Shown here: positions 4,441-29,799 of the stretch, one piece after another | How positions within the stretch are numbered: the stretch's first letter is position 1 | Layout: every line of letters starts with the position of its first letter | IMG/VR virus record: IMGVR_UViG_3300042367_000627 | Span: 1-29,799 of that record | DNA length: 29,799 bases | Strand: one strand, 5' to 3' | DNA from: a virus | The notes under the pieces: generated by a model | Told to the model about the DNA's origin: nothing | Databases searched by the model: none | What the model saw: only the letters and a program-made list of their open reading frames with translations | Program-made: the position numbers and the translations under genes

Positions 4441-4442
4441 CC

Positions 4443-5125: not shown

Positions 5126-6707
5126 ACGGAAAGTCTCCGTCCGCCTTGGTGTTGTTGGCGGCAAGCAAGTCGAGGATCAGCTGCGCCGGATCGGGACGAC
5201 CGGAAGCGACGCCTTCCGCAAGGTCGGCCGCGATGGCGCGCATGCCTTCAGCCAGATCGAACGCGCCAGCGGCTCGGGCCGTGCCGCGATCGCCAACACC
5301 GCCTTCCAGATTCAGGACCTCGCTGTGCAGATCGCGGGTGGGACCAGCGCCAGCCGGGCGCTCGCGCAGCAACTGCCGCAACTCCTGGGCGGCCTGGGGG
5401 TCATGGGGGCCGTGGCCGGTGCGGCGGCGGCGATCTTCATCCCCTTCGCAGCCTCCCTCTTCGACACGGCGGACGCAACCGCCGCGGTGGTCGAGGAGAT
5501 GCTCGGCGCAGGCGGGTCCATCGGCGCGGTGGAAAGTGCCGTCTCGGCCCTTGAGGCAACGCAGCGCGCCTATAACGCGGCGATTTCCCAGACCGGCGGG
5601 GCGTCGTCCTCGGCGGCGGCGCTGGTGATCGCGAACTCGGCGGCGGAATTCGAGGCGCGCAAGCAGATCCTCGCGGTCGAGTTGGAACTCCTGCGCATCC
5701 GGCGGAAGGAGGGTGCCGAGTCTGCCACCAACCTGCGCGACGGCATCGCGGCCGAGCGCAACAACCAACTGTCGCGGATCATCGGCGGCATGCAGAACGA
5801 CATCCGCTTCACCGGCACCGACCGGGCGGGTGGCACCCTGTCCGACTACGTGAACATCGGCCCGCGCAGCGTCGCTGAGTCCGGCGTCACCCCGGACATG
5901 GTGGAGGCCTACCGCGAGGGCACCAAGCTGGACCGGCTGGCGCTGCAAAAGCTGGACGCAGAGAACACTCTGGCCGACCTTGCCATCACCAATGCCGAAG
6001 AGCTGATGACCACGAAGTTCGAGCAGGTCGCCGCCGGGGCAGAGGCCGTCGTGCCCGCCGCCGGCCGCGCGGGCGGGGCCGTCCGTCAAGCCGGGCAGGA
6101 TGCAGGCCAGGGCGGCGAAGCGGCCACAGCGGGCTGGGCGCTGGCCGTCGAGGCCCTCGATCAGTACGCGGCCAGCGCGCGCGACATCGGCAAGGACATC
6201 GGCGCGAGCCTTGTGGGCGCCTTCCGCTCCGCCGAAGACGCGATCGGCAATTTCGTGAAGACCGGCAAGCTGGATTTCGGCAGCCTTGTCACCAGCATGA
6301 TCGCCGATCTGGCCAAGCTTGGCGCGCGCCGGTTCATTCTCGGACCGCTGGCGGGCGTGCTGTCGGGCGCGTTGGGCAGTGGCGCGGTCGGCCAGGCGCT
6401 GGCGGGCGTGTTCCACGAGGGCGGCACGGTCGGCGCGGGCGGGGTGACCCGGGCCGTCCCGGCTGCCACCTTCCTCGGCGCGCCGCGGATGCATTCCGGC
6501 GGCTGGGCAGGCCTTGCCGCCGATGAGGTGCCCGCGATCCTGCAGCGCGGCGAGCGGGTGCTGTCGCGCGACGAGGCCCGGGGCTACGGCCAGCCGTCGG
6601 TCAACGTCACCATTCAGGCGCGTGACGCGCAAAGCTTCCGGCAATCCCGCAGTCAGGTTGCGGCAGATATCGCGCGCGCCGTCCAGGCCGGGCGGAGAGG
6701 ACTGTGA
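5118..6707 (+). CDS. Tail length tape measure protein
   Basis: This 529-residue protein starts at ATG 5118 with GGGAGGA seven bases upstream; an earlier in-frame ATG at 5076 lies inside the preceding gene. The N-terminus (MAERKVSVRLGVVGG) leads into helical, alanine/glutamine-rich sequence. A strongly hydrophobic stretch at residues 87-115 follows, then a helical central region. The C-terminal part (SLVGAFRSAEDAIGNFVKTGKLDFGSLV, then HEGGTVG and LQRGERVLSRDEARGYGQPS) is typical of lambda-type tape measure C-terminal domains. It sets tail length and is ejected during infection. It is short for the family; at about 0.15 nm per residue it would give a tail near 80 nm. Its last ~80 bases are duplicated downstream. 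Confidence 0.9.
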   Translation: MAERKVSVRLGVVGGKQVEDQLRRIGTTGSDAFRKVGRDGAHAFSQIERASGSGRAAIANTAFQIQDLAVQIAGGTSASRALAQQLPQLLGGLGVMGAVAGAAAAIFIPFAASLFDTADATAAVVEEMLGAGGSIGAVESAVSALEATQRAYNAAISQTGGASSSAAALVIANSAAEFEARKQILAVELELLRIRRKEGAESATNLRDGIAAERNNQLSRIIGGMQNDIRFTGTDRAGGTLSDYVNIGPRSVAESGVTPDMVEAYREGTKLDRLALQKLDAENTLADLAITNAEELMTTKFEQVAAGAEAVVPAAGRAGGAVRQAGQDAGQGGEAATAGWALAVEALDQYAASARDIGKDIGASLVGAFRSAEDAIGNFVKTGKLDFGSLVTSMIADLAKLGARRFILGPLAGVLSGALGSGAVGQALAGVFHEGGTVGAGGVTRAVPAATFLGAPRMHSGGWAGLAADEVPAILQRGERVLSRDEARGYGQPSVNVTIQARDAQSFRQSRSQVAADIARAVQAGRRGL

Positions 6708-12700: not shown

Positions 12701-13741
12701 TGCGTCCGGCAGGACCGCGAGGCCTATGATCTGCCGCCGGGCGAGCCGCGCCTGGCATCCATCGCGCGCCCGGTGGTGTTCGGCGCGCCTGTGGTCGAAT
12801 TCATGGACCTGCCACAGCTTCGCGAGGACGTGCCCGCGCATCGCCCGTATCTCGCCGCCGATGCCGCCCCGTGGCCGGGCGCGCTGGGCGTGTATCGCAG
12901 CCCGGCGCTGGACAGCTTCGCCTTTCTGACCGGCGTCGACGGTCGCGCGCGAATGGGCAAGCTTGCCTCGGACTTTTATCCCGGCCCCGTGAGCATCTTC
13001 GATCTGGGCAACTCGGTGCTGGTCGATCTGACCTATGGCACGCTCGGCAGCGTGACGGATCTCGATGTGCTGGGCGGGGCGAACGCCTTCGCCCTGGAAA
13101 GCGGGCCGGGCACCTGGGAAATCCTCCAGGCTGCGACCGCCGAGCTGGTCTCGCCGGGGCGCTACAGGCTCTCGCGGTTCCTGCGCGGGCAGCGCGGCAC
13201 GGAAACTGCGATGGGCAACCCCGCGCCCGTGGGCGCGCGGATCGTGGCGCTGGACGATCTGATCGTCCCGCTGCCCATCGCCGAGGCGGAGATCGGGCTG
13301 GCCTGGAACTGGCGCGTTGGCCCGGCCTCGCGCGGCGTCAGCGATCCGACCTACACGGGCCAGGCGTTCACCCCTGCCGGGCGCGGCCTCGTGCCCTTCG
13401 CCCCGGTGAATATCGAGCAGCCCTGGCGCACCGGGCGGGTGCCGGGCGACCTGACGATCCGCTGGGTCCGGCGCTCGCGCGATCTGTCCTCCGACTCCTG
13501 GGAAATCGGCGAGCCGCCGCTGGCCGAGACGGTGGAGGCCTGGGAGGTGGAAATCCGGGACGGCGCGGCCCTCAAGCGCACGCTTTCCTCAGGCACGACC
13601 TCCACCCTCTACAGCGCCGCAGCGCAGATCGCCGACTTCGGCGCGGTCCTCGGACCCGGCCAGTCCTTCACCGTCCGCATCTACCAGCTATCCGCCCGGC
13701 TCGGGCGAGGCACGCCTGCAATCGTCACCCTGTTCACCTGA
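9761..13741 (+). pseudogene. GTA g15-like tail tip/host specificity protein, interrupted by an amber codon
   Basis: One frame runs from ATG 9761 to 13741 (1326 residues) except for TAG at 10697-10699, codon 313. The N-terminal part has a glycine-rich hydrophobic stretch, then LPRLFGRMRLGGNIIWATDF and the TEYLYYSSFAVALCEGPI motif of tail tip proteins. After the stop come VTQIDGRPVYGGTPSDASIV and a glycoside-hydrolase-like TIM barrel (FYPFVMMDIPPGN; WFTEIGCPAIDRG), then Phage_tail_3-like and C-terminal beta domains. In relatives these are one protein forming the megatron-like tip that contacts the host. TAG is one base from TGG, which would give W-SVGGL as I recall in homologues. Unless the codon is suppressed or reinitiated, the tip protein is not made whole. 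The codon could also be a sequence error. Confidence 0.8.
10697..10699 (+). other. In-frame amber stop codon in the tail tip gene
   Basis: TAG splits an otherwise continuous frame whose two halves belong to the same protein family. The downstream piece has no convincing ribosome site before its first candidate start (GTG 10736). Confidence 0.8.
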
Positions 13742-15129: not shown

Positions 15130-15163
15130 CCGATTGCCCTATCCCTTCCCGAAGGAGACGCCC

Positions 15164-15538
15164 ATGACCGAACGCCCTGATCTGATCAACTGGCTCTGGA
15201 CCGAGCCGGGCAAGGCCGCCCTCGCCGGAGCGCTGGGCGGAATCGTGCGCTGGGTGACCCTGCGCGAGCACTGGCGCGACGGCGTGCTGTCGCTGCTCGT
15301 CGGCTCCATCTGCGCCGTCTACCTTGGCCCGCTCGTCGCCCCGATCCTCGAGCCGGTGATCGGCAAGCTGGCCCCGGGCGGCGACAGCGCCGGGTTCTCG
15401 AGCTTCGTCGTCGGCATCGGCGGCATGTCGATCTCGGGGCTGATCATCGACATCTTCCGCGCCCGGCGTGCCGACACTGCCAGGACCCGCCCCAGCAATA
15501 CCGATACCGGCCGGAAGGACGACGATGCGCAGTCGTGA
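15164..15538 (+). CDS. Holin-like small membrane protein
   Basis: This 124-residue protein starts at ATG 15164 with GAAGGAG upstream. Hydrophobic stretches at about 17-31, 41-62 and 78-98 could form three membrane spans, and a charged C-terminal tail (RARRADTARTRPSNTDTGRKDDD) follows. That is the layout of a class I holin. It lies directly before a tiny membrane protein and the amidase endolysin, so a role in opening the inner membrane at lysis is likely. I recognise no named family, and the function rests on topology and context. The last 14 bases overlap the start of the 31-residue gene. Confidence 0.55.
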   Translation: MTERPDLINWLWTEPGKAALAGALGGIVRWVTLREHWRDGVLSLLVGSICAVYLGPLVAPILEPVIGKLAPGGDSAGFSSFVVGIGGMSISGLIIDIFRARRADTARTRPSNTDTGRKDDDAQS

Positions 15539-15685: not shown

Positions 15686-16147
15686 ATGATCGAACCCCCG
15701 ATGATCCTCCAGGGTGCTGCCCGATACCCTGTGCGCGAGATCATCCTGCACTGCAGCGCCACAAGGCCGGACTGGCTGGGCGCCTCGTCCCTCACTGCCA
15801 AGCGCGCGGAAATCCGGCGCTGGCACATGCAGGACCGCGGCTGGCGCAATATCGGTTACCACTGGCTGATCGACTTCGACGGCCAGCGCGCACCCGGCCG
15901 CCTCGAGACCGACATCGGCGCGCATGTCGTGGACCACAACCGCGGCACGATCGGCATCTGCCTGATCGGCGGGCACGGGGCCGATGCCGACGACAAGTTC
16001 GCCGAGCACTTCAACTCGGCGCAGGCACGAACGCTGCGTGCGCTGATCGCCGATATCCGCAACCGGACGCAGATCGCCAGGGTGACCGGCCACAACGACT
16101 ATGCCGCGAAAGCCTGCCCGGGCTTTCGCGTCTCGGGCTGGATTTAG
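15686..16147 (+). CDS. N-acetylmuramoyl-L-alanine amidase endolysin (T7 lysozyme-type, Amidase_2)
   Basis: This 153-residue enzyme cuts the bond between muramic acid and L-alanine in peptidoglycan at the end of infection. The zinc ligands are visible as His22 (LHCSATRP), His136 (TGHNDYAAKACPGF) and Cys144. Tyr58 (NIGYHW) and Lys142 match the T7 lysozyme catalytic Tyr46 and Lys128. There is no signal peptide, so export to the wall would depend on a holin, in line with the membrane proteins on both sides. The start has GGAGA nearby. Length and motif spacing are normal, so it should be active. Confidence 0.9.
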   Translation: MIEPPMILQGAARYPVREIILHCSATRPDWLGASSLTAKRAEIRRWHMQDRGWRNIGYHWLIDFDGQRAPGRLETDIGAHVVDHNRGTIGICLIGGHGADADDKFAEHFNSAQARTLRALIADIRNRTQIARVTGHNDYAAKACPGFRVSGWI

Positions 16148-16465: not shown

Positions 16466-16495
16466 CGCCCCCTCGGTTCCGCCGGGGGGGCGTTT
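16466..16495 (+). terminator. Strong GC-rich hairpin closing the lysis operon
   Basis: CGCCCCCTCGG (16466-16476) pairs with CCGGGGGGGCG (16482-16492) over 11 positions with one G-T pair and a 5-base loop. It is followed by only three T residues, so termination is probable but not certain. Confidence 0.5.
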
Positions 16496-16529
16496 GCGCA
16501 TGCGGCCCTTCCCATCATCGAGGCCCGGG

Positions 16530-18039
16530 ATGACCAAGCCCTTCACCTATCTCAGCGTCTGCAGCGGGATCGAGGCGGCCTCCGTCGCCTGGAAGCCGCT
16601 CGGCTGGCGGCCGGCAGCCTTTTCCGAGATCGACCCCTTCGCCTGTCATGTGCTGGCGCACCGCCAGCGCGCGACGCGACCGATGTTCATGCCGGACCCC
16701 GCCGCTGCCCCCGGCTTTGTCGAACGGCGCAAGCGGATGGCCGCGATCAAGGCCGTCGCCGGGCTGCCCCTTCCAGGCACTCCGAACCTCACCCCGAACT
16801 TCGGCGATCTCGAAGCTTACAGGACCTGGCCCGATGCAGCTTTCGATCTTCTCGTTGGTGGAACCCCTTGCCAGTCCTTCAGCGTCGCCGGATTGCGAAA
16901 GGGACTGGACGATCCGCGCGGCAACCTGGCCCTCGTCTATCTGGGCGTGGCTGACCGATACCGGCCCCGTTGGCTGGTGTGGGAGAACGTGCCCGGTGTC
17001 CTGTCATCGGGCAAGGGACGGGATTTTGGTGCCTTCCTCGGGGGTCTGGGCGAACTCGGGTATGGCTGGGCTGACCCGAGTGCTGGACGCTCAATACGTG
17101 CGAACATGCCGCTTCCCCGGCGCCGTTCCCCAACGGCGGCGACGTGTGTTCGTTGTCGGATATCTTGGAGACTGGCGACCTGCCGCGGCGGTTCTTCTTG
17201 ACGCCGAAAGCCTGCGCGGGAATCCTCCGCCGGGCCGTCGGTCGCGGCAAGACGCTGCCCCCACCCTTGCAGCGCGCCCTTCAGGCGGTGGCGGGCTTGG
17301 TACCGACTTCGATCTCGACGGCGGGCTGATCCCGGCGGTGTCAAGCGCGCTGGCCGCGCGGGATGCCAAGCTGCCGAGGGCCGAGGACAATGTCGGGATC
17401 ATCGCCGTCGCTCATGCGCTTCGAGGGACCGGGTTCGACGCGAGCGAAGATGGGACGGGGCGCGGCACGCCGCTGGTGCCCATCGCCTTCTCCGCCAAGG
17501 ACTACGGCGCCGACGCAGGCGACACCGCCCCAACCCTCCGGGCCATGGGCCACGCCGCGAGCCACGCCAACGGCGGCGGTCAGATCGCCATCGCGATGCA
17601 GGAACGCGCCGTCAGCGAAAACCTCGCCGCCGGGCCGGATGGGGCCGGGTTCCGCCAGGATGGCGCGGCCTACACGCTCGAGGCCCGGACCGTCCCGCAA
17701 GCGGTGGCCTTCGATCTGCGTGGCCGCGACGGCGGTGCCATGCTGGAGGGCCCGCACGACACGGCGAACCTCCGCGCCGCGTCCGGTGGGTCGTCCCGCA
17801 GCTATGTGGCGCAGGAGGCTGACCCGCTGATCTGGGCGGTCCGGCGGCTCACACCGCGCGAATGCGAGCGCCTGCAGGGCTTCCCCGACGACTACACCGA
17901 CGTTCCCTGGCGCCGCCGGAACTGGACCCCAGACGGGCCACGCTACAAGGCGCTGGGCAACAGCATGGCGGTCAACGTGATGGGCTGGCTGGGGGAGAGG
18001 ATTGAGGGATTTGTGACTCAGGTTTCGGAACGCGATTAA
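16530..18039 (+). pseudogene. C5-cytosine DNA methyltransferase, split by a frameshift
   Basis: Frame one begins at ATG 16530 with motif I (YLSVCSGIEAASVAW), the catalytic PCQ motif (Cys114 in GGTPCQSFSVAG) and WENVPGVLSS (motif VI). Near 17067-17080 the conserved reading passes to another frame, which continues RVLDAQY, PQRRRRVFVVGYLGDW (motif VIII), a long target-recognition region and the C-terminal blocks RRLTPRECERLQGFPDDYT and ALGNSMAVNVMGWLGERI. One extra base explains the break; without it the protein would have about 502 residues. Phage-borne orphan methyltransferases of this type protect phage DNA from host restriction. As it stands, the catalytic and recognition parts are separated, so the gene is probably inactive, unless the extra base is an error. 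Confidence 0.85.
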
Positions 18040-18199: not shown

Positions 18200-18538
18200 G
18201 GGTCAGGACCCATTGAACTTGCTCTGTCGGCATGATTCAGACTCGGCAAGGAGACCGAGCAATGAGCAACCTTTTCTGGCTGACGGACGCGCAGATGGCG
18301 CGTCTGGAACCCTTCTTTCCCAAGAGCCATGGCAAGCCATGCGTCGATGACCGACGGGTGCTGAGCGGGATTATCTTCATCAATCGCAATGGTTTGCGGT
18401 GGTGTGATGCGCCCCGGGTATGGCCCGCCGAAGACTCTCTACAACCGATGGAAGCGGTGGGGCGACAAGGGTATCTTTGCCCGGATGATGGAAGGTATGG
18501 CGGCAGAAGCGGCTGTTCCGAAGCCGGTGATGATCGAC
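18200..18538 (+). mobile_element. IS5-family insertion sequence remnant (left end only)
   Basis: The left end begins at GGGTCAGGACCCATTGA next to a CTAG that fits the usual target of related IS5-group elements. It contains the transposase start and breaks off at 18538, where IS256-type sequence begins. No right end is present. Confidence 0.7.
18262..18538 (+). pseudogene. IS5-family transposase, frameshifted and truncated
   Basis: ATG 18262 follows a GGAGA ribosome site. The protein begins MSNLFWLTDAQMARLEPFFP and continues VDDRRVLSGIIFINRNGLRWCDAP, typical of the N-terminus of IS5-group transposases. After that the family sequence (YGPPKTLYNRWKRWGDKGIFARMMEGMAAEAAVPKPVMID) continues in another frame, consistent with a two-base deletion near 18415. 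It stops at the first catalytic Asp region at 18538. The DDE catalytic core is missing, so the element cannot move by itself. Confidence 0.8.
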
Positions 18539-18688
18539 ATAGCCCATATGCGCCGTCAGTTCGGCCCCAAGCATGCGCTCCATCAGCCGGACCTTCAGTT
18601 CCTTCATCAGCCTTGAGTCGCCCAACAGGTCTTCAGGCCGCTTGCAGCCCTTCAGCAATTCGTCCAGCAGTTCGTTCGAAATCGTCAT
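18539..18688 (-). pseudogene. IS256-family transposase N-terminal fragment
   Basis: Fifty codons remain: MTISNELLDELLKGCKRPED, then LLGDSRLMKELKVRLMERMLGAELTAHMGY. This is the conserved start of IS256 (Mutator-like) transposases. The frame then crosses the junction into antisense IS5 DNA. No catalytic residues are left. Confidence 0.8.
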
Positions 18689-18750
18689 TGTCCTTGCTCC
18701 TCTCAGGAAGCATGGACCAGATCACAGATACACAGAAGGCCGGACACTCT
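18539..18750 (-). mobile_element. IS256-family insertion sequence remnant (one end)
   Basis: On the minus strand this starts with a terminal-repeat-like GAGAGTGTCCGGCCTTCTGT near 18750-18730 and runs into the transposase N-terminus. It ends abruptly at 18539 against the IS5 fragment. The outer boundary is approximate. Confidence 0.65.
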
Positions 18751-18931
18751 CCACCCGCGTTTCCGAAAGTCAATCAATACGGGTCGTGTATTGGACCAAA
18801 TTGGACCGCGCCGGGATCACTGCGCGGCATCCTACATCAATCGTTGGGACTCGGCCAACCCTCTTGATGCGGAACAGTAGACTTGGCTGCATTCTCGATT
18901 GATCGAGCCACCTGCTCTGCATCCCAACAGC
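18751..18931. other. Intergenic stretch between IS scar and glycan cluster
   Basis: No confident gene is seen. A short + strand reading (ASYINRWDSANPLDAEQ, stop near 18870) could be the end of a lost gene. The glycosyltransferase on the minus strand ends at 18932. Confidence 0.3.
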
Positions 18932-19657
18932 TTACCCGCTGACTTGGTCTGTGTCAGGCCAAGGGACGCCCGACACGCGGTTCACTAACTCCATCTGTGA
19001 TCCGCTACGCGCACGTTTGAAATGCATTGTACCCGGCACAGGTTTGTGTGGGAAACCCGCTTGCAGCGTTACGACATTCCAGTGCCAGTCCTCGTGCCCG
19101 AATCCCAGCCGCAGGTCATTGGCACGGAACGGAAAGCGGAGGTGGAGGTCGGTCCGTGCGATCGTCAGCGCGTCCCAGCAATTGGTCCAGCTCAGATAAG
19201 CCGCATCAAAGAGCGCGGTCTCGGAATCGGTGTGCCACCACAGCAACCGCTTGCGCCCGAACACCAGATTGCACGCGGAATGGGCCACAACGTCAGGCCG
19301 TGCCTCGATGAGCGCGTGCCCCGCTACAAGCCAGTTGCGCGACCACAGGTCATCTGCATCGAGGAAAGCAACTGTCCGGCCGACTGCGGCGGCCACCCCG
19401 CGATTGCGCGCGCCGCCTGGGTCGCCCTCGTCCGTGGCCAGAAAGCGGGCGCGATCACCGAGTGCGGACCGCAGAACACGAGCAGTCAATTCATCGGCCC
19501 GGTCGAGCACTACAACCATCTCGACGTTCAGACTATTCGCGGCCGCCTCGGCCATAGCCGCCTCGGCGCTGCGGGCCGATTGTGCGGCGATCAGCCCCTC
19601 ACGATGCGCGGTAATGATAACGGTGATATCGACAGGATCGCTCGAAGCAGCGCTCAT
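18932..19657 (-). CDS. Family 2 glycosyltransferase
   Basis: This 241-residue protein has a GT-A fold pattern: DITVIITAHREGLIA (nucleotide-binding strand), then GARNRGVAAAVGRTVAFLDADDLW, with the metal-binding DAD near residue 102. A later FGHEDWHWNVVTLQAGF contains the ED motif expected near the catalytic base. It should transfer a sugar from a nucleotide donor to a growing glycan on the cytoplasmic side; donor and acceptor are unknown. It overlaps the upstream GT4 gene by four bases, so the two form an operon. The C-terminus is short and lies next to the IS scar, so a slightly trimmed end cannot be excluded. Confidence 0.8.
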   Translation of the reverse strand: MSAASSDPVDITVIITAHREGLIAAQSARSAEAAMAEAAANSLNVEMVVVLDRADELTARVLRSALGDRARFLATDEGDPGGARNRGVAAAVGRTVAFLDADDLWSRNWLVAGHALIEARPDVVAHSACNLVFGRKRLLWWHTDSETALFDAAYLSWTNCWDALTIARTDLHLRFPFRANDLRLGFGHEDWHWNVVTLQAGFPHKPVPGTMHFKRARSGSQMELVNRVSGVPWPDTDQVSG

Positions 19658-21258
19658 GATCCGATCTCCGCCACGGCCCGGTCATAGGTGGTACCATCAT
19701 GGTTGGCTGCGATGCGACGCTGCAGTGCTGCGGCACGCTCTTGGCGCGCACCGGGGTCCGCCAGCATCGACCGCAACGCCGCCTCGTAGCCTGCGAGGCC
19801 CGCTTCCGGATCGACCGGCCATCCGGTCCTGCTGTCGATGAGTTCCGGCACACCCCCTACGGCACTGGCCACGATCGGCATACCCATCGCTCCGAGCTCG
19901 ATCAGGATTGTCGGCAGGCCGTCCCAGTCAGAAGTGTACAGCCAGCCGTCGGCATCCTTCATGGGCAGCTGGGCATACTTCGAGAAGGGCGGGTTCAGTC
20001 GCAAGTTCGGGGGCAGACCCGACAGGTCCGGTGGCGTGTCAAGGACCGCTTTACCCCAAGCATCGAAATCAACGTCGGGCATCGCTCGCGCCAGGTCGAT
20101 TACGATGTCGAACCGCTTCTGGCGGTCGAGACGCCCGCCCCAGAGGACCCGGGGCCGCAATCGGCCAGCACGGCGGTCAGCCTGCACTTTAGCAAGCGTA
20201 CCATCTGCCACCGGGGTCAGAGCTGGCGTGTAAACGGTTCGAACCCGTGCGGCGAGATCGTCGGGTAGACTGTACCGCCCCGTAAGAGACCGCGCGAGAT
20301 CGGCGGTGTCAAAGATAGCCGCCGTTAGATGCGGCAGAATGTTGGCGAAGTACCAGACCGGATAGCCCACCTCGTTTCCCGCGGAGTCCCGGTCGGCACA
20401 GAAATAATAGGCATATAGTTGGGACTGTACTGCAAGGCGCGCACCGTAATGCACGAGCATATCGAAGCCGAGACGGCTATTCACATTCCAAACGCGCCTC
20501 GCACCGAGTTCACGCAGCAGCATGTAGAGAGCACGCGGCCGGTCCGACAGCTTCGAGAATTCGGCCGAGATGTCGATGGCCGGGGCCGTATCGGGATACC
20601 AGTCGGGCCGGTCCCAGTCGGACAGGTCGGTCCGCAGGATCAAGGTGCGGCCCTGCCGCACCAGTGCCCCGGCCAGAATCCCGGCCACCAGATCTGCTCC
20701 GCCGAGCTTGCCGAAAGGGACGAGCACAACCGAGTCGTAGGGGCCTGCCGGAATAGACGCTACAGCCTTGCGGAAATGGGCATATTCGCCATCATGCCAG
20801 GGTGGCAGGAAACCCGGCTCGTATCCGTTCAGCGATCCCACCTCAGGCTCGATCTGCGCGGCACATGCGATGAGGGCATACATCTCGGCCGAACCACAGA
20901 AACTCTCCATCTCCGCCTGTGTCGCACGGGCGTTGGACTCGCGTGTCACTGCCGCAAGATAGGTCTCATGCCACTCGGGATGCACCTGGAAGAACAGCGG
21001 TCTGGGCGTCGCGCTCGGCGCCAGAGCCCCGGTCGGAGCCGCAGCCTCGCGTGCGTCGCCCATCACGCGACCAATCGAGGTACGCTCGCGGCGCTTGCGA
21101 CGAGAGTTGCGGTAGCGCGCGATCACATCTCGTGGAAAGTCACGTACCTTCCCCGCAAGCTGCCGCAGAAGCCAATTGGTCTTGCGGCTCTTACGCTCGT
21201 GCTCGGCGAGGGCTGCGCGCAATACGGAAATATCGTCGTTTGGGTCCACGAAACTCAT
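19654..21258 (-). CDS. Family 4-like glycosyltransferase with N-terminal extension
   Basis: This 534-residue protein starts with a charged coiled-coil-like region (LRAALAEHERKSRKTNWLLRQL; RNSRRKRRERTS). A middle domain contains YDSVVLVPFGKLGGADLVAGIL, the donor-independent half of a GT-B fold. The C-terminal half shows RPRVLWGGRLDRQKRFDIVIDLARAMPD and DWDGLPTILIELGAMGMPIVASAVGGVPELI, the GT4 nucleotide-sugar binding region with its conserved glutamate. It likely adds a sugar to a surface glycan or glycoprotein. It is translationally coupled to the GT2 gene. No strong ribosome site is visible at the start. Confidence 0.8.
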   Translation of the reverse strand: MSFVDPNDDISVLRAALAEHERKSRKTNWLLRQLAGKVRDFPRDVIARYRNSRRKRRERTSIGRVMGDAREAAAPTGALAPSATPRPLFFQVHPEWHETYLAAVTRESNARATQAEMESFCGSAEMYALIACAAQIEPEVGSLNGYEPGFLPPWHDGEYAHFRKAVASIPAGPYDSVVLVPFGKLGGADLVAGILAGALVRQGRTLILRTDLSDWDRPDWYPDTAPAIDISAEFSKLSDRPRALYMLLRELGARRVWNVNSRLGFDMLVHYGARLAVQSQLYAYYFCADRDSAGNEVGYPVWYFANILPHLTAAIFDTADLARSLTGRYSLPDDLAARVRTVYTPALTPVADGTLAKVQADRRAGRLRPRVLWGGRLDRQKRFDIVIDLARAMPDVDFDAWGKAVLDTPPDLSGLPPNLRLNPPFSKYAQLPMKDADGWLYTSDWDGLPTILIELGAMGMPIVASAVGGVPELIDSRTGWPVDPEAGLAGYEAALRSMLADPGARQERAAALQRRIAANHDGTTYDRAVAEIGS

Positions 21259-21468
21259 ACCGCTTATCGATTGTCGTCCGCTCGGGGCAACGGAAGCTTG
21301 CAGTTGCTGCCTTCACCGCATTCGGGTTTCGTGTAATGGGTTACTCCCATCTGTACAAGCGCCGTGTGGCGGCGGCCTTGCACGACAAAGGCCCCTCCTG
21401 CTATGTGGGTTTTCGTGTTGACTGGCGCAGACGGGCCTCTGCCCCACACCACGGACCGCAGGGAATGC
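21259..21468. other. Divergent intergenic region between GT4 and triple methyltransferase genes
   Basis: This 210-base region separates two divergent operons and must hold promoters for both. A TTGACT at 21418-21423 resembles a -35 box for the rightward gene, but no clear -10 follows at the right distance. No RNA gene or repeat is seen. Confidence 0.4.
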
Positions 21469-23979
21469 ATGATGACCCCAACGCTAGATCCGTCCGCCAA
21501 TCCCGAGTTCGCGGCCATTTGGGCGCGAGTGCAGCCCTTCACAATGACCACCGTCGAACGCGGCTTTGCGCTGTGGACTGCGGTGAACACGGTTGTGGAC
21601 AACGGCATTCCGGGCGGTTTCGTCGAATGCGGTGTCTGGCGGGGCGGTTCATCGATGTTGATCGCCTTGACGCTGCTGGCGCGCGGCGAGGCACATCGCG
21701 AGCTGTTCCTGTTCGACACCTTCTCGGGGATGAGTTCGCCGGGCCCCCACGACTTGGACCTCAACGGCGTGGCTGCGTCCGATCTGATGCAGGGCTCCCA
21801 CGGGCCTGAGGTTGCCGAACTGGTGCGCGCCGAGGCGCCGATCGAGGCGGTGCGGACCGCAATGGAGCAGACCGGCTACGACATGCGCTTGGTGCGTCTT
21901 GTCGAGGGCGACGTGGCTGAGACGCTGCCGCGGGTCCAGACCCTGCGCATCGCTCTCTTGCGCCTCGACACCGACTTCTACGACAGCACCATGGCCGAGT
22001 TGCGCCACCTCTACCCGCGCCTGACGCGGGGCGGAATCATGATCATCGACGACTATGGCCATTGGAAAGGCGCGAAGCGAGCGGTCGACGAGTATTTCGC
22101 GGACACCGCCAGCGGCTACCTCCGACCCATGCTCTGGTCGATCGACTACACCGGACGCGGCGCGGTCAAGGTCGAACCGGACGAGAACGTCGAGATCGAA
22201 CGTTACGACTATCTTCCGCCGGGCATTGACCCGCCCGACCTGCTTGGCCAGTTCCCCGACGCCCGAGCCGAAAATCCCTGGGCGGTGAACTGGCCGTATC
22301 TGCGCCCCGAGGTGCCACATGTCTGGCGGTCTGACATACGCAACGACACGCCCTATGTGACCGGCAACGCCTCGGTCGAGGAGGCCGCCTGCCTTTGGGC
22401 GCTTGCCCGCCAGTTCGCCGGGCGGCGCGGGCTGGAAATCGGCAGCCATTACGGCTGGACCGCAGCGCATCTGCTGGCAGCGGGACTGGAGCTTGATTGC
22501 ATTGACCCGGAGTTCTTGCGCGAGGTGCGCCTTCGGCAAGTATCGGAAGCGCTCGACCGGGTGCAGGATGGGGGTAGCTACCGCCTTTGGGGCGGATTCT
22601 CGCCCGCGATCCTGCCCGAGGTGCGCGCCAGCCGCCCCGAACCTTGGTCTTTCGCCTTCATCGACGGCTCGCATGACGGTACTGCCCCGGCTGACGACGC
22701 GTGCGGGGTTCTGCCGCATTTGGCACCGGATGCGGTTGTCGTCTTCCATGACTTGACCTCGCCGCATGTCGAAGCTGGGCTTGCCATCTTCCGCGACGCG
22801 GGCTTCCAGACGCGGCTGTTCAACACGATGCAGGTCCTCGGCGTGGCTTGGCGCGGTGCCGTGCAGGTGTTCGACCATGTGCCCGACCCGAACATCGCAG
22901 CAGTGACAATTCCCCATCTCGAAAAGTATCTCCGGCGGGAGGACGCCAGTCGCGAACGCGCCCAAGGGCCAGAACAAGAGGACAACCCGATGAGTTCAGA
23001 CGGACGCAATCTGATCGACCGTCTCGTGGGCAGACGGGAGCCGCCGCCCAGCCCGGCGGAGGTAGCCGTACCGACCGCGGTGGTCCGGCCGCGCGCCGTG
23101 GACGCTCCGCCAGCTCAGACCCCTGTCTGGGAGAATCTGGTCTGCCTCAACTCGGACGTAGAGCCTGCCTTCTCCCTGCTTGCACCCGCCGCCGCGCATC
23201 GTGCGACCGACGCGCGGCTGGTTGACTGGGATAGCCTCGGTTACAGCGCCGCTCTGAAGCGTGACACCTGGCCCTTGCCCGAGACCGCCGACCGCGAGGG
23301 TTATTACGGCCCCGATCATTTCAGCTACTGGGCCAGCGGCCTGCTGGATGCCCGCTACCTTCTGGAGGCTGCTGCTGCCCATGGCGTGGCCGATCCGGGC
23401 TGCTTTCTCGATCTCGGTTGTGCCTCGGGCCGTTTGCTGCGGCACATGGCCCTGGAGCGGCCCGGGATGCGCGCGCTCGGCTGTGACATCAACCGCCTGC
23501 ATGTGGAATGGTGCAACCGCCACCTTCCACCCGGCTGCACCGTGTTCCAGAACCACTCGATCCCGACATTGCCTCTGCCCGACAACTCGGTGGATATCGT
23601 CTCGGCCTACAGCGTCTTCACGCACATCGAGGCGCTCGAGACCGCCTGGCTGATGGAACTGCGCCGCATTCTGCGCCCGGGCGGGATCGCCTGGATCACA
23701 GTGCACAGCGAACTGACATTGCAGGACATGACGCCCGACTGGCCGCTCTGGAACCCGGTGATGCTGCACCCCGAAGCGGCAACGAAGCTTGACGCAACCC
23801 GCGCTTTCGTCGGAGACCGGATGGTACTGCGCTGGCGGTCGGACCGATCCTATTCATCCAACGTGTTCTACAAGCTGGATTATATACGTACTACCTGGTC
23901 ACGTCTATTCGAGATCGCCGAGGTTCGCCGCAGGTTCCCGTCTTTTCAGGACGTCCTGATCCTGCGTAAGCCCGGCTGA
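21469..23979 (+). CDS. Triple-domain methyltransferase fusion (TylF-like + two class I SAM domains)
   Basis: This 836-residue protein starts at ATG 21469 (or the next codon), shortly after AGGGA. Domain 1 (about residues 25-215) resembles TylF/MycF sugar O-methyltransferases: GGFVECGVWRGGSSMLIALTL, LFDTFSGMSSPGPHDLD, and LRLDTDFYDSTMAELRHLYP with IIDDYGHW. Domain 2 (about 300-480) has GLEIGSHYGWTAAHLLAAG, FIDGSHDG and VVFHDL of a Methyltransf_24-like fold. Domain 3 (about 600-820) is a classic class I methyltransferase: FLDLGCASGRLLRHM, ALGCDIN, DIVSAYSVFTHIE, LRPGGIAWITV. A proline-rich linker joins domains 2 and 3. It probably methylates several hydroxyls of a surface glycan. Three methyltransferase folds in one chain is uncommon. 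Confidence 0.85.
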   Translation: MMTPTLDPSANPEFAAIWARVQPFTMTTVERGFALWTAVNTVVDNGIPGGFVECGVWRGGSSMLIALTLLARGEAHRELFLFDTFSGMSSPGPHDLDLNGVAASDLMQGSHGPEVAELVRAEAPIEAVRTAMEQTGYDMRLVRLVEGDVAETLPRVQTLRIALLRLDTDFYDSTMAELRHLYPRLTRGGIMIIDDYGHWKGAKRAVDEYFADTASGYLRPMLWSIDYTGRGAVKVEPDENVEIERYDYLPPGIDPPDLLGQFPDARAENPWAVNWPYLRPEVPHVWRSDIRNDTPYVTGNASVEEAACLWALARQFAGRRGLEIGSHYGWTAAHLLAAGLELDCIDPEFLREVRLRQVSEALDRVQDGGSYRLWGGFSPAILPEVRASRPEPWSFAFIDGSHDGTAPADDACGVLPHLAPDAVVVFHDLTSPHVEAGLAIFRDAGFQTRLFNTMQVLGVAWRGAVQVFDHVPDPNIAAVTIPHLEKYLRREDASRERAQGPEQEDNPMSSDGRNLIDRLVGRREPPPSPAEVAVPTAVVRPRAVDAPPAQTPVWENLVCLNSDVEPAFSLLAPAAAHRATDARLVDWDSLGYSAALKRDTWPLPETADREGYYGPDHFSYWASGLLDARYLLEAAAAHGVADPGCFLDLGCASGRLLRHMALERPGMRALGCDINRLHVEWCNRHLPPGCTVFQNHSIPTLPLPDNSVDIVSAYSVFTHIEALETAWLMELRRILRPGGIAWITVHSELTLQDMTPDWPLWNPVMLHPEAATKLDATRAFVGDRMVLRWRSDRSYSSNVFYKLDYIRTTWSRLFEIAEVRRRFPSFQDVLILRKPG

Positions 23980-24006
23980 TGCTGAGAACGGATGTCACAC
24001 TCTGGG

Positions 24007-24774
24007 TCAGCCCCCGGGTGTGACATGCGCCGTCAGGGCGTCAGGATACGCGGCGTGCAGGTCCAGCCAGCCGGGCGCAAGATCCTCGTCCATATCGTGC
24101 AGGTCCTTCCAGCGGCGGTAGATGCCGTCAATCTCGGTCATAGGCCGCCATTTCGCCGCAGGAAGCTCACGCCCGAACAGACCACTCATTTCGCCTGTGA
24201 ACTGGACCGGCACGAATGTCCCTTCGCGGGCCGGTTTGGGCGGCTGCTTGAAAGAATGCATCCACTGGTTGACGATCTGTCCCAGGCTGTAGCCGCAAGC
24301 AACCAGTAGTGCACCTTCGTTCCCGGCACTCATTTCTGCCGAAACAGAGCGCGGGCGCCGTTGGTCGCGCGTCAATTGATCCAGAAGGATCGCGTCTCCA
24401 CCTTCCAGATCGCATTTCAGGTAATGCGGCACGCCATGGGCATCGAACAGCGAGGCCAAGTCTATGGTATCGACTTCGATCCGTACGCTCTGCTGCACAC
24501 CCTTCTGAGCCGTGGCCTGGTCCAGACTGCCCCAATCGTCCTTGCCCGGCACCGTGTAGAAGGCCACCTTCCGCCCCGGCTCATGATAAAGCGCCTTGTT
24601 TATGATGGTGAGCCTCGCGCCGAAGGCGGCAAGCCTGTCCCTGCACAACTCGGCCAGGCGCGGGCCGGCTTCGATCCCCACCACACGGAAGCCCTTGTTC
24701 AGGTAGAACTCTGCATCGAAGCCTTTGTGCAAACCCAAATCGAAAATCAGGTCGCTTTCGACATTCTGAGTCAT
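24007..24774 (-). CDS. FkbM family methyltransferase
   Basis: This 255-residue protein begins with SDLIFDLGLHKGFDAEFYLNKGFRVVGIEAGP, the SAM-binding motif I and acidic motif II of FkbM-type enzymes. It also has VDTIDLASLFDAHGVPHYLKCDLEGGDAILLDQL, the KxDxEG-like signature of that family. Such proteins O-methylate sugars or other hydroxyls in surface polysaccharides and natural products. It is convergent with the triple methyltransferase (27 bases between stops) and lies upstream, on the same strand, of nothing else in this cluster. Its acceptor is unknown. Confidence 0.85.
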   Translation of the reverse strand: MTQNVESDLIFDLGLHKGFDAEFYLNKGFRVVGIEAGPRLAELCRDRLAAFGARLTIINKALYHEPGRKVAFYTVPGKDDWGSLDQATAQKGVQQSVRIEVDTIDLASLFDAHGVPHYLKCDLEGGDAILLDQLTRDQRRPRSVSAEMSAGNEGALLVACGYSLGQIVNQWMHSFKQPPKPAREGTFVPVQFTGEMSGLFGRELPAAKWRPMTEIDGIYRRWKDLHDMDEDLAPGWLDLHAAYPDALTAHVTPGG

Positions 24775-24864
24775 TTCTTTGCTCCGCCATGCTTCAGGTC
24801 TGGATGTTGTGCCAGCAGTGCCAACCGGCGCAAAGGGTCAGTGCAAGGATGGCGCGCGGCGGTT

Positions 24865-25991
24865 TCAGTCCCGCTTTGCAGGTGCTGCCCGGCGCAGGAT
24901 CGCCGTGCGGGCCGGCTTTTCCACAAAATGATGCAATGCCGCCCCTGCAAGAATGCAGACTGGAAAAACCACAAGCGGCGAAGCCGGCTCGATCCTGCTT
25001 TCGACCGCGGCAAGGAAAAACGCCTTCATGATGATCTGGTGCACCATGTACAGCGAGAAACTGATCTCGCCCAGCCAGACCAGCGGCTGGCGCGACAACA
25101 GCCACCCCAGCGGACCGCGTCCCGCAGCGACAGCGACGATCAGCCCGGCGCAGACCAGACACGAGGCAGAACTCTTGTACCACTGCTCGGCCAGAACTGA
25201 ACCCTGCGCCAGTGCCTGGCCAGCCCAGAAGCCCGACAGCGCCCACCAGACGATGACCAGCACGGCTGCGGTTTCCAGACCAGTCGCAGCCGCCCGCCCG
25301 ATCACGCGCCTGTTGAGTGTCTGCCACATCACATACGACGCCATTCCCAGCACGAACTCGAAACCGCGGAACAGTGGCGAGGAATAGGCAAGGAACATCA
25401 CGCTCAGGTCCTGCGGATCCGAATAGGCCGGGATTTCGAACAGAGCGAACAGGGCACCATAGGCCCCGATAATGGCGGCGAACAGCGCAAGCTTCCACGG
25501 CCAGGTCCGGTGGATGTCCTTCAGCAGCAGCGGAAACATCAAGTAGAAGAACCACTCCGTCGATATCGACCAAGACGGTGAGTTCCAGGAGAACACATAG
25601 TTCACATACGGCACGATGCTGTGCAGAAGGAGGATGTTCGCCACCAGCACAAGGCGGGGATCGAAGAACCCCTCGCCCGGAAGCTGGCGCGAATCCGGGC
25701 GCAGAAGGACAAAGACGAGGACCAGCGTCACCAGATGCACCGGCCAGAGCCGCGCGGCCCGGGCCAGCAGGAACCGCCCGGTGCCGGTCGGACGCGCCGA
25801 ATAGACATGCGTCAGGATAAAGCCCGACAGAACGAAAAAAAGCTCACACCCTGCGAGTAAACTCCCACGCGCGCGAACTCGCCCCAGGGGAACAGGCCTT
25901 GGGTGTGGTGCAGCAGAATCATGAACGCCGCGGCAAAACGCAGGGACGTCAGGGGTCGCAGGTCGCTTGGCGTGTTCTGGCGATTGGGCAC
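24865..25991 (-). pseudogene. Membrane acyltransferase (OafA/YrhL-like, Acyltransferase_3), frameshifted in a homopolymer
   Basis: The gene starts at GTG 25991 with GGGGAGGA upstream and reads VPNRQNTPSDLRPLTSLRFAAAFMILLHHTQG, the RxxAxxxVxxxH-like start of this family. At a run of seven T residues (complement of A 25835-25841) the frame is lost: GVSFF is followed by a premature stop. With one more T it continues FVLSGFILTHVYSA, then joins the long downstream frame (MHLVTLVLVFVLLRP and many membrane spans, NSPSWSISTEWFFYLMFPLLL, EISFSLYMVHQIIMKAFF) to 24865. The repaired protein would be about 375 residues with roughly ten spans. Such enzymes O-acetylate or otherwise acylate surface glycans. 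The break may be a phase switch, slippage, a true mutation or a sequencing error. Confidence 0.8.
25835..25841 (-). other. Seven-base homopolymer at the acyltransferase frameshift
   Basis: A run of seven A (T on the coding strand) lies exactly where the family sequence changes frame. Adding one base restores the gene. Such runs can vary by slippage. Confidence 0.7.
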
Positions 25992-26177
25992 GGCAAGTCC
26001 TCCCCGGATCGACTCAAGCCTGATATCGGTCGTCAGCCCGGTCGGCAAGCAAGGCGCGCGGGTCGGGCTCGGCAGATTTTTCGCCGTGGCGCAGTAATCC
26101 CTTTCTGCTATAGGCTCGGTCGGGGCCCGCTCTTGGCAGCACGGGCATGGTTCCAGGGTCCAGAAACGGAGCGCGCT
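25992..26177. other. Divergent intergenic region between acyltransferase and glycosyltransferase fusion
   Basis: This 186-base region must hold promoters for both directions. TATAGG at 26109-26114 resembles a rightward -10 element; the -35 is weak. No other structure is seen. Confidence 0.35.
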
Positions 26178-28268
26178 TTGAAGCTTAGCATCTGCATCCT
26201 GAGCGGTACCGACTCGGACGCGGTGATGCGGTGCCTGACCGAGTTGCGCGGCCAGAACCTTCCGTTTGCGAATGAACTGCTCATCGCCAGCCAGGCCGGA
26301 GTGTCGGAAGGGGCGGCACCTGTTCCTGGGGCAGTGCTGCTTCCCCATACCCGCGGCGCGGCTGCGGCGATCCGACTCGCCGCAACACGCGCAAACGGCG
26401 AAATGATCGCCGTGATCGATCCATATCTTCAGCTGATCGACCCGTTCAAACTGGTCAAGCAGGTCGACTGGCTCGACCGTAACCCTAAGGCGGGCGGGTG
26501 CCTTCACCCAGTGGCTGGGGTTGAAGGGGCATGTCGACTGGGCGTCAAACCCGAATATCTAACCGCGGAAATGCTTCTTGCTTCCCGGTCCGACGTGGCA
26601 CTCGGCAGTCTTGTCTTTCACAGGGCTGCCGTGGCCCATCTGCCCGACTGGTTTGACGCGACAGACAGCCCCGGATGGGCGTTGGCCTTTCTGTTAGCCT
26701 CGGGTCCGGGACTTTGGTGCTTGCCCCACGCTATGGCGACAGCCACAGCTCAACCTCGGGAAGACGCAGGATTTCTGGCCGCCGCCATGCTCCGGTTGGA
26801 TGCGGACCGCGACGCCCTCCTTGCAGAGCGCTCAGACCTTCGTTCGGCCTTAGCTGAAACGCGCAGTCATCCCTTTCGGACCCTCAGAGCATTGGCATCC
26901 TTTTATGCTCTGTCGGCGCTGACGCGCGCCTCACCTCCGCTACCGGCCCGGATGGCGACCCGAATGGCAAAGAGCGCGGTCAAGCGCGACCCGGAACGGT
27001 CGCTGCGCGCCGTTGGGTCCGATCATACCGTACATGGGTCGACTGCAAATTCCGGCGCCGCGCGACATGCGGGACGACCGTCCAATACGGCAAGGCCCTC
27101 AATAATGATCGTAACGCACGACGCCAGCCGCACCGGTGCCCCGATCCTGGCGCTGAACCTCTGCGAGGCACTATCGGCACGCTACAACGTCATCGTCTTC
27201 GCCCTGCGCGACGGTGAGTTGAGGCCACTGTTCCAGAAGCATGCAACCGAAGTGATTGTGCCCGCGCGTTACTCCCGCGACGGTAAGACCTACACCAAGC
27301 TTGTTGCCGAGGCGGCGCGCCGCCACGGGCTGTGCTTTGCCATCGTCAACAGTCTCGAGTCGGTCGCGGCACTGGGGCCGTTGAGGCGAGCAGGAGTCCC
27401 AACAATCAGCTTGGTGCACGAGTTTGCGGCCTACACCCTGCCGCGATCGCTTTTCGCCGAGGTCGTCGCCCTGTCCGACGACACGGTGTTCTCTACCGAA
27501 CTCACGCTTGAGGATGCGCGAACATTGGCCTATCTTCCGGAAGACGCGCGGTTGCATGTCATACCGCAGGGCAAGAGCACCGTTCCTCCTGCGGCAGGGA
27601 ACGCCGATGCCGCAGCTCGGGACGCCGAACGTGCCTGGTTATGCACTGCCATGCGCCCCGATGGCATCATTCCTGACCCCTTTTTGGTGTTGGGTGCCGG
27701 CACGGTGCATCCACGCAAGGGTCTTGATCTGTTCCTCGACTGCGCCGCACGTGTGATGGCAAGCGCCGAAGGGCAAAGGTTTCGCTTTGTCTGGATCGGG
27801 CATGGTTACGCACCTGAGACCGACATGAACTATTCCGCCTATCTCGCCGACCAGATCCGGCGCACCGGCATGGGTCGGCAGATCGCTATTCTGCGCCAGA
27901 CTGCTGAAATCGAGACGGCTTACCGCCTCTCCGATCTGTTTCTTCTGTCGAGCAGACTCGACCCGCTACCAAACGTAACAATCGATGCGCTGACGGTCGG
28001 CCTGCCTGTGTTGTGTTTTGATCGGACGACTGGTATCGCTGAGCATCTGGCGGAGGAGGGTTTGGGAACGGACTTGGTTGCGCCCTACCTCGACACCGCT
28101 GCCATGGCTGGACGCATCGAGGATCTTGCCCGCGACCCGGGGATGCTGCAGCGCGTTCGAGACCGCTGCCGCGAAATGGCCGCCCGGCGCTTCGATATGC
28201 CGACCTATGTGCGGCAGATCGAGGCGCTCGCGAAGGCAGCACTAGAGCGGCGCGGAGAAGGGCTGTGA
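26178..28268 (+). CDS. Two-domain glycosyltransferase (degenerate GT2-like + GT4)
   Basis: The most plausible start is TTG 26178 with ACGGAG upstream, giving 696 residues that begin LKLSICILSGTDSDAVMRCL; the open frame continues upstream without family sequence. The N-terminal part (about 1-210) is GT2-like but has IDPYLQ where a DxD is expected, so it may not be catalytic. A helical linker (ALLAERSDLRSALAETRSHP) follows. The C-terminal GT-B domain (about 310-690) has IMIVTHDASRTGAPILALNL, VLGAGTVHPRKGLDLFLDCA and SSRLDPLPNVTIDALTVGLPVLCF, typical of GT4 enzymes. It probably adds a sugar to the cluster's glycan. The epimerase gene follows on the same strand. Confidence 0.8.
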   Translation: MKLSICILSGTDSDAVMRCLTELRGQNLPFANELLIASQAGVSEGAAPVPGAVLLPHTRGAAAAIRLAATRANGEMIAVIDPYLQLIDPFKLVKQVDWLDRNPKAGGCLHPVAGVEGACRLGVKPEYLTAEMLLASRSDVALGSLVFHRAAVAHLPDWFDATDSPGWALAFLLASGPGLWCLPHAMATATAQPREDAGFLAAAMLRLDADRDALLAERSDLRSALAETRSHPFRTLRALASFYALSALTRASPPLPARMATRMAKSAVKRDPERSLRAVGSDHTVHGSTANSGAARHAGRPSNTARPSIMIVTHDASRTGAPILALNLCEALSARYNVIVFALRDGELRPLFQKHATEVIVPARYSRDGKTYTKLVAEAARRHGLCFAIVNSLESVAALGPLRRAGVPTISLVHEFAAYTLPRSLFAEVVALSDDTVFSTELTLEDARTLAYLPEDARLHVIPQGKSTVPPAAGNADAAARDAERAWLCTAMRPDGIIPDPFLVLGAGTVHPRKGLDLFLDCAARVMASAEGQRFRFVWIGHGYAPETDMNYSAYLADQIRRTGMGRQIAILRQTAEIETAYRLSDLFLLSSRLDPLPNVTIDALTVGLPVLCFDRTTGIAEHLAEEGLGTDLVAPYLDTAAMAGRIEDLARDPGMLQRVRDRCREMAARRFDMPTYVRQIEALAKAALERRGEGL

Positions 28269-28344
28269 CTGAGGCGAGGCGCGCCTTGCAGAGTTTTCTG
28301 AAAAACAAGAAGGTTTGCCCGGACGATGCAAGGGGAGTGACAGA

Positions 28345-29259
28345 ATGAAAGTTCTGGTTCTGGGAGGAAACGGATTCATCGGATCGCATGTGGTAGATGC
28401 CCTGCTGCGGCAAGGCCATTCGGTCCGAGTATTTGATCGCCAGCCGGAGCAGTTCCGTGCGTCACTGAAGGACCTCGATTACCGATTCGGCAGCTTCGCG
28501 GACCGGATGGCGCTGAATGATGCGCTGGCGGGCACTGAAGCTGTGCTGCACCTTGTAAGCACCACCTTCCCGGGCACGGCTGATCTCGATCCGCGGACAG
28601 ACGTTCAGGACAACCTCATGAATACGATCGGGCTGCTGGACTCAATGCAGAGCCTTGGAATCCGGCGCCTCCTGTTCCTGTCCTCAGGTGGCACGGTCTA
28701 CGGCATCCCAGAAACCATCCCGATACCGGAAAACCACCCACTGCGGCCAATCAACTCCTACGGCATCGTCAAGGTCGCCATCGAACATTACCTTGAAATG
28801 TACCGCAGGACGCGCGGCCTTTCGCCGGTGATCATCCGCGCCTCAAACCCTTACGGTCCGCGTCAGGCGCATGTTGGTGTGCAGGGCGTAATCTCGACCT
28901 TCCTGCGACGAGTGAAGGCCGGCGAAGCAATCGAAGTCTGGGGTGACGGCAACATCCTGCGCGATTACGTCCATGTGGCCGACCTTGCCGCGCTTTGTGT
29001 GACCGCGGTTTCGGGGTCGGTCGAGGGAACCTTCAATGCTGGCAGTGGCGCTGGTGTGACGGTGAACGAGATCATTGCGCGCGTGGTCGAGGCGACCGGA
29101 ATCGCAGTCGTACCCGTCTACAAGCCGGGCCGCGCCATCGACGTACCGCGTTCTGTACTGGACGTGCGTCGGGCGGAAGAAGTGTTCGGTTGGCGTGCGA
29201 AGACTGGCCTGCGTGATGGAATTGCCGAGACATGGGATTGGCTTGGCACCCAGCCCTGA
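28345..29259 (+). CDS. NAD-dependent sugar-nucleotide epimerase/dehydratase (GalE-like SDR)
   Basis: This 304-residue protein is taken from ATG 28345, seven bases after AGGGGAG; an upstream in-frame ATG at 28315 has no such site. It has the Rossmann motif GGNGFIGSHVV (residues 7-17), FLSSGGTVYG with the catalytic Ser near 114, the Tyr139-x3-Lys143 pair (SYGIVKV) and the NPYGPRQ substrate-binding segment. It also shows WGDGNILRDYVHVADLA, common to extended SDR epimerases. It likely supplies a nucleotide sugar to the neighbouring glycosyltransferases. UDP-glucose 4-epimerase is one possibility, but other 4-epimerases or dehydratases are not excluded. Confidence 0.88.
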   Translation: MKVLVLGGNGFIGSHVVDALLRQGHSVRVFDRQPEQFRASLKDLDYRFGSFADRMALNDALAGTEAVLHLVSTTFPGTADLDPRTDVQDNLMNTIGLLDSMQSLGIRRLLFLSSGGTVYGIPETIPIPENHPLRPINSYGIVKVAIEHYLEMYRRTRGLSPVIIRASNPYGPRQAHVGVQGVISTFLRRVKAGEAIEVWGDGNILRDYVHVADLAALCVTAVSGSVEGTFNAGSGAGVTVNEIIARVVEATGIAVVPVYKPGRAIDVPRSVLDVRRAEEVFGWRAKTGLRDGIAETWDWLGTQP

Positions 29260-29555: not shown

Positions 29556-29603
29556 CGGCAGAGCTGGGACCCTAGCGAAGACGCGCACAAGAGGTTGGTT
29601 CCG

Positions 29604-29617
29604 CGTTTCGCGAAACG
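29604..29617. repeat. Perfect 14-bp palindrome near the attachment site
   Basis: CGTTTCGCGAAACG is a perfect palindrome, flanked further out by AGAGG and CCTCT, so a longer imperfect hairpin is possible. There is no T-tract right after it. It may be a protein-binding site or a weak terminator at the end of the element. Confidence 0.55.
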
Positions 29618-29648
29618 TTCCCTCTTCGCCCCACGTTCATTTCCATCT

Positions 29649-29661
29649 TAACATATTGAAT
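29649..29661 (-). promoter_or_regulatory. IHF-like site next to the attachment core
   Basis: On the minus strand ATTCAATATGTTA matches the integration host factor consensus WATCARNNNNTTR with one mismatch. It lies in AT-rich DNA 16 bases left of the tRNA fragment, where phage attachment sites often carry such sites. Binding is inferred. Confidence 0.3.
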
Positions 29662-29676
29662 AAAAATGATAAAATT

Positions 29677-29724
29677 CGGATTGCAAATCCATGAAGACCG
29701 GTTCGATTCCGGTACCCGCCTCCA
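29677..29724 (+). other. 3' half of tRNA-Cys(GCA): probable distal attachment site
   Basis: The sequence contains the anticodon loop TTGCAAA (anticodon GCA), a T arm (ACCGG, TTCGATT, CCGGT at 29697-29713) and the acceptor 3' strand ACCCGCC with T discriminator and CCA (29714-29724). The 5' acceptor strand (GGCGGGT expected), D arm and a fully matching 5' anticodon stem are absent. The left stem strand TCGGA does not fully pair with TCCAT, so tRNA identity begins about 29678. This is the remnant left at the far end when an element integrates into a tRNA-Cys gene at the dyad GGATTGCAAATCC. It is not an intact tRNA gene. Confidence 0.8.
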
Positions 29725-29799
29725 ATAATTTCAATAGGTTAGAGAGAATTTTGCCTCAGAAACCCGAAGCGGTTTCAGATTCGGTTTCAGGTTTCCCGT

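Follow-up and report, generated by a model that had tools for sequence, protein, structure and literature searches.

We analysed IMG/VR virus record IMGVR_UViG_3300042367_000627 over its whole length of 29,799 bp (the window), the left 18 kb of which form the head-tail-lysis half of a siphovirus, with a focus on the glycan cassette to their right. Seven glycan open reading frames (ORFs) occupy 18.9-29.3 kb in mixed orientations, and domain matches in Pfam bore out all seven at the positions given in a preliminary description made from the sequence alone. The capsid, tail, amidase/holin and Dcm genes left of the cluster are phage genes by PHROGs and Pfam matches, with structural and lysis genes as in tailed phages, and the gene transfer agent (GTA)-type TIM-barrel tail protein shares 65% identity with its counterpart in Rhodobacter phages, for example RcKvothe of the RcC cluster. 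Insertion sequence (IS) remnants sit between the Dcm gene and the glycan cluster; their IS4/5-type part is backed by Pfam and the second part was recognised by frame inspection. Because the record begins within the capsid gene, the window holds neither an integrase nor a terminase.

Table 1 Features of the window, in order of position.
Feature	Position	Strand	Evidence and remarks
Fused head protease/major capsid protein	1..1722	+	phrog_4523, E 9e-195; truncated by left end of record
Tail protein	3502..4440	+	phrog_290, 2e-68
Tape measure protein	5076..6707	+	phrog_8462, 2e-28
GTA-type TIM-barrel tail protein	9761..13741	+	phrog_4271, E 0; relatives aligned
Small holin-like protein	15161..15538	+	phrog_2359 (holin), 6e-8
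N-acetylmuramoyl-L-alanine amidase (endolysin)	15686..16147	+	phrog_822, 3e-47; PF01510, 8e-15
Dcm-type DNA cytosine methyltransferase, frameshifted at ~17075	16494..18039	+	intact homologue in L014 (PF00145); left border of cargo slot
Degenerate IS remnants	18232..18902	.	IS4/5-type DUF4096 on + (PF13340, 3e-10); transposase-like fragment on -
GT2 glycosyltransferase	18932..19657	-	PF00535, 2.6e-14
GT4-type glycosyltransferase	19654..21258	-	PF13692, 1.8e-8; homologue adjoins a GT2 in chromosomes
Three-methyltransferase ORF, 871 aa	21364..23979	+	TylF, 2e-43; Methyltransf_24, 2e-27; Methyltransf_11, 2e-15
FkbM-family methyltransferase	24007..24774	-	PF05050, 3.7e-9; TIGR01444 above cut-off
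Acyltransferase 3 (OafA-like), two frames joined at A7 tract	24865..26040	-	PF01757, 3e-16, on 24865-25740; N-terminal part in other frame
Glycosyltransferase, GT4 C-terminal domain, long N-terminal extension	26178..28268	+	PF13692, 1.6e-16
NAD-dependent sugar epimerase/dehydratase	28345..29259	+	PF01370, 6e-52; under cut-off of every NCBIfam equivalog listed
Left (P) arm of attachment site, A+T-rich	29599..29676	+	29599-29724 aligns to G001:C122 at 83%
attP core, 48 bp of tRNA-Cys 3' half (anticodon loop to gene end)	29677..29724	+	47/48 bases as in intact tRNA-Cys of G001:C23
Right (P') arm, towards integrase gene beyond record	29725..29799	+	29677-29799 aligns to G001:C23 at 87%, beside integrase; arm also adjoins integrase in G002:C43

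The methyltransferases and the acyltransferase of the preliminary description are present, but the methyltransferase domains number four, three of them in one ORF, and the acyltransferase is split by a frameshift. The three-methyltransferase ORF probably starts at the ATG at 21469, and a possible internal start for its third domain lies at 22990, where an ATG is preceded by a purine-rich stretch. As homologous chromosomal clusters encode the third methyltransferase in a gene of its own, the ORF may be a read-through fusion. The position of the upstream start of the acyltransferase, which also matches phrog_6705 ('O-antigen acetylase') at 7e-12, is uncertain. For the glycosyltransferase with a GT4 C-terminal domain, the TTG given as its start is a guess, and its N-terminal part looks GT2-like by inspection. 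Scans with Pfam, PHROGs and NCBIfam revealed no GtrA flippase, GtrB bactoprenol glucosyltransferase or GtrC membrane transferase family in the cluster, and a gtr-type mechanism is therefore not supported. Likewise, neither a flippase or transporter nor a polymerase or ligase was recognised among the cluster ORFs by Pfam and NCBIfam, so that the cluster is not a complete Wzx/Wzy or ABC-type locus. PADLOC reported no defence families among the cluster proteins tested.

ARAGORN detected no intact tRNA in the window, and Rfam (E<=1) reported no RNA family there, the tRNA fragment included. The junction at the right end of the window is accounted for by two contigs of a Rhodobacter metagenome-assembled genome (MAG; G001). 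In contig C122, a backbone sharing 89% identity with 12 kb of the window is followed by a different glycan cluster, then by the match to the P arm and core, and then, past the right attachment site (attR), by host genes for a sulfate-type ABC transporter, the first of which is present in six of seven genomes of the genus. In contig C23, an acyl-CoA dehydrogenase gene beside the intact tRNA-Cys is followed by the match to the core and P' arm and by a tyrosine integrase gene (PF00589). The other element end for which the preliminary description had called, with an intact tRNA-Cys and an integrase, was thus located, and the same MAG holds the cargo end, where the left arm and tRNA fragment lead into conserved host genes. 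From these alignments, the 48-bp tRNA-Cys fragment is identified as the attachment site of the phage. The window has both phage arms around the core and therefore the structure of attP, and its end reads as attP in a circular or tandem form of the phage, which hints at excision. In line with this, the DNA to the right of 29.7 kb, where the preliminary description had considered that the element might end, is the integrase-proximal arm of the same phage, as expected of attP, and no further boundary that would leave the cluster outside. A search for repeats of at least 12 bp found no second copy of the core in the window, and hence nothing suggests that the phage ends at ~18 kb, ahead of the cluster.

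Searches for this site elsewhere covered several sets. The P arm was found in G001 only among 394 genomes of the family. Exact attP-arm patterns had no match in viral contigs, a result of little weight since the window's own record possibly lay outside the searched set, and the att region had no match in seven viral relatives, all of which are contig fragments. The acyl-CoA dehydrogenase gene beside tRNA-Cys is kept in G280, and the transporter genes found past attR are not beside tRNA-Cys in other members of the genus. None of the sampled prophage-free strains was seen to carry the cluster at tRNA-Cys, an arrangement that the preliminary description had named as refuting its reading; a chromosomal homologue lies elsewhere. 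Separate 5' halves of tRNA-Cys were observed 53 kb from the intact gene in G400 (C6:342535-395551) and 7 kb from it in G404 (C4:22438-29249), which suggests other elements at the same tRNA. In a related phage (L191, ~15900-16060), whose integrase is 74% identical, the att-like core stems from another tRNA and is separated from int by ~5 kb of genes.

Viral record G412, which is 89% identical to window positions 4-5748, carries the integrase, a replication gene, the terminase and structural genes (portal, capsid) in this order on one molecule, and the same integrase and right arm recur in another assembly (G002). Because the integrase that matches the attachment-site arm is linked to the terminase, portal and capsid genes of a record with 89% identity to the window, the glycan cluster is carried inside the phage. 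Together with the two arms in G001, this linkage bears out the earlier proposal that the tRNA-Cys fragment is the attachment site and that the cluster rides within the element. The genome order is probably attP, integrase, replication, terminase, head, tail, lysis, (Dcm), cargo and attP. Arithmetic across several relatives, as distinct from an assembled genome, gives a phage of about 43 kb with a cargo of ~11.5 kb; the glycan cassette of this lineage measures roughly 11 kb.

Over the tail, lysis and Dcm genes, relatives retrieved via the amidase are 88-90% identical to the window. Four of them (L014, L033, L006 and L010) lose this similarity at 18002-18069, and in the single relative whose contig extends far enough it does not return before the P arm (29599). 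Four different contents follow these similar backbones, which is the variation inside a prophage among close relatives that characterises moron cargo. Cassette A occurs in three metagenomic records (the window, L012 and L075), with 96% identity up to the ends of the L012 and L075 contigs. Cassette B, in L014, whose contig stops ahead of any attachment site, encodes a TylF methyltransferase and a methyltransferase-WbsX fusion, and cassette C, in G001, encodes FkbM, a DegT aminotransferase, ATP-grasp and Gfo/Idh proteins. These three share no blastn similarity, yet all consist of glycan genes; between A and B, protein similarity is distant and confined chiefly to the TylF gene. Cargo D, in L007, diverges slightly earlier than in other relatives; no glycan genes were found in it, and after the amidase (11336-16780) it holds two large proteins without a Pfam or PADLOC match, which could be undescribed defence genes. 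The slot between late genes and attP is swapped as a block. Three further genomes (G400, G280 and G401) were too distant to serve as slot comparators, their tail proteins being 59-71% identical; behind their lysis regions lie other genes, and the stretches read contained no tRNA-Cys core. In the Rhodobacter MAG prophage L033, a complete transposase-like ORF (12139-13497) interrupts the Dcm gene.

G+C content falls from 68-69% in the backbone to 57-63% in the cargo across cassettes A, B and C, and from 69% to 62.5% in the window itself. A chromosomal contig of another Rhodobacteraceae genome (G131) carries a homologous set comprising GT2, GT4, Methyltransf_24- and Methyltransf_11-type genes and FkbM, parts of which are also present in G347, G263 and G395. 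No phage genes were noticed near these chromosomal homologues in the stretches read (20 kb in G131), and a search of viral contigs with the 871-aa methyltransferase ORF gave no match. The cassette looks to have been recruited from bacterial glycan loci, perhaps with the help of insertion sequences.

We consider it probable, with some room for doubt, that this siphovirus is temperate, has Rhodobacter-type bacteria as hosts and integrates at tRNA-Cys, and that its block-exchanged glycan cassette is lysogenic-conversion cargo altering a surface glycan. Lysogenic conversion of the surface glycan is the most likely role of the cassette. The data show the phage genes, the attachment site, the integrase linkage and the swapping of cargo; we infer the expression, chemistry, target and benefit of the cassette as follows. 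In this lineage, three glycosyltransferases, four methyltransferase domains, an acyltransferase and a sugar epimerase would be expressed in the prophage state and would activate, transfer, methylate and acylate sugars. As no flippase, polymerase or ligase was recognised, these enzymes would rely on glycans made by the host, lipid-linked or protein-linked, and on host carriers. The product would be a methylated and acylated surface glycan, newly made or capped, and the altered glycan would probably act as a changed receptor and so exclude related phages. The placement of the cargo slot, outside the late operon and adjoining attP, is common in temperate phages; the conversion genes of epsilon34 are an example of prophage-expressed genes next to attP (PMC2629481).

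That the glycan cluster is instead a host chromosomal island beside a prophage ending at ~18.1 kb, the tRNA fragment stemming from another element, is very unlikely. The G+C change and the IS remnants at 18.2-18.9 kb, the contigs of many relatives that end at the ~18.1 kb border and the homologous cluster in a chromosome would all fit such an island, but the core has no second copy near 18 kb, the P arm in G001 comes after a different cargo on the same type of phage backbone, and a single molecule carries the terminase and capsid of this phage together with the integrase that matches the right arm. Phages encode glycosyltransferases for DNA or virions, and the enzymes could act on virion proteins or phage DNA rather than on the host surface. 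We regard this as highly improbable, given that the cassette, with genes in mixed orientations, is placed in a slot next to attP and not in the late operon, has a G+C content below that of the backbone and homologues in chromosomes, and is swapped wholesale while the virion genes remain ~89% identical.

Flagellin as the target, in place of lipopolysaccharide, capsule or exopolysaccharide, is an unlikely though live alternative to surface-polysaccharide conversion. It would agree with the lack of recognised polymer-assembly genes, and small methyltransferase-rich glycan islands are typical of flagellin glycosylation. However, flagellar genes were not noticed in the vicinity of the homologous clusters (G131, G263 and G395), and the neighbours of the G263 homologue, by inspection sulfotransferase-like, nucleotidyltransferase and flippase-like genes, hint at a polysaccharide locus. 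The other live alternative, in our view also improbable, is that the cassette is a decaying relic that persists passively, and at present without function, in a defective prophage. The IS remnants and three lesions speak for this: the Dcm frameshift, which is unlikely to be a sequencing error because L012 and L075 have it too; an in-frame TAG in the TIM-barrel tail gene (10697-10699), either a nonsense mutation or an assembly error, at a codon that reads TGG in seven relatives; and the acyltransferase frameshift. The last falls exactly at the A7 tract (25835-25841), one of only three homopolymers of at least 7 bases in the window, and can be a sequencing artefact or, possibly, phase variation. 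Against decay, long open frames make up the rest of the cassette, two further metagenomic records preserve cassette A up to the ends of their contigs, and the attP-like window end hints at excision.

Several observations nevertheless weigh against the favoured explanation. The cassette by itself cannot display a polymer, because no flippase, polymerase, ligase or GtrABC was recognised. G001 is the sole relative with cargo and attR on one contig and has its two prophage ends on separate contigs, and the gene order from int to lysis was assembled from several records. Moreover, the two frameshifted genes and the stop in the tail gene may mean that this copy is decaying and not fully functional.

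Glycan conversion by phages is a classical phenomenon, and prophages with glycan cargo are already known. The P22-like and Shigella phages with gtrABC operons resemble the present phage in being temperate, in having attP in a tRNA 3' end (43 bp of argU in epsilon34) and in surface-glycan genes that vary between related phages and are exchanged among them (PMC2629481). In contrast to their three-gene operon with a flippase and a polytopic transferase, the present cassette has seven ORFs in several orientations without either of these, and whole unrelated cassettes are replaced. Prophages of roseobacters, in the same bacterial family, carry nucleotide-sugar genes with a proposed O-antigen effect (PMC8224337), but their rfbABCD (dTDP-rhamnose) clusters consist of four precursor-synthesis genes, compared with the glycosyltransferases, several methyltransferases and acyltransferase found here; tRNA-Cys is not among the tRNA integration sites listed in that study. 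The RcC-cluster phages of Rhodobacter capsulatus (RcKvothe, RcDormio and others; PMC8601537) share the order terminase, portal, protease-capsid fusion, tail, GTA-like TIM-barrel, holin and endolysin, whereas RcKvothe has neither an annotated integrase nor glycan cargo. Phage O-antigen acetylases of the Oac/OafA type are likewise Acyl_transf_3 membrane enzymes; the acyltransferase of the window differs in being one frameshifted gene within a cassette.

What is new here is the replacement of whole cassettes at a fixed attP-flanking slot; the literature, as far as it was covered, yielded no description of unrelated multi-gene glycan cassettes swapped in their entirety at one such slot in this phage group. 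A more far-reaching and rather doubtful possibility is a dedicated exchange slot that loads whole bacterial glycan loci, with prophages as shuttles that change surface chemistry many genes at once and possibly with an acyltransferase switched on and off by slippage at the A7 tract. Environmental bacteria differ greatly in their surface glycans, and for the most part the carriers of this diversity are not known; if the proposed reading is true, a slot with wholesale-replaced glycan cassettes would allow surface structure and phage sensitivity to change in jumps. The predicted contrast between a lysogen and a strain with an empty tRNA-Cys site is directly testable.

Within the tail operon, at 7510-8312 on the minus strand, a GNAT acetyltransferase toxin-like gene and a TacA1-type antitoxin gene lie in reverse orientation. 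This pair is present in L005 and L033 and cleanly missing at the same point in five other relatives (L002, L003, L004, L007 and L009).

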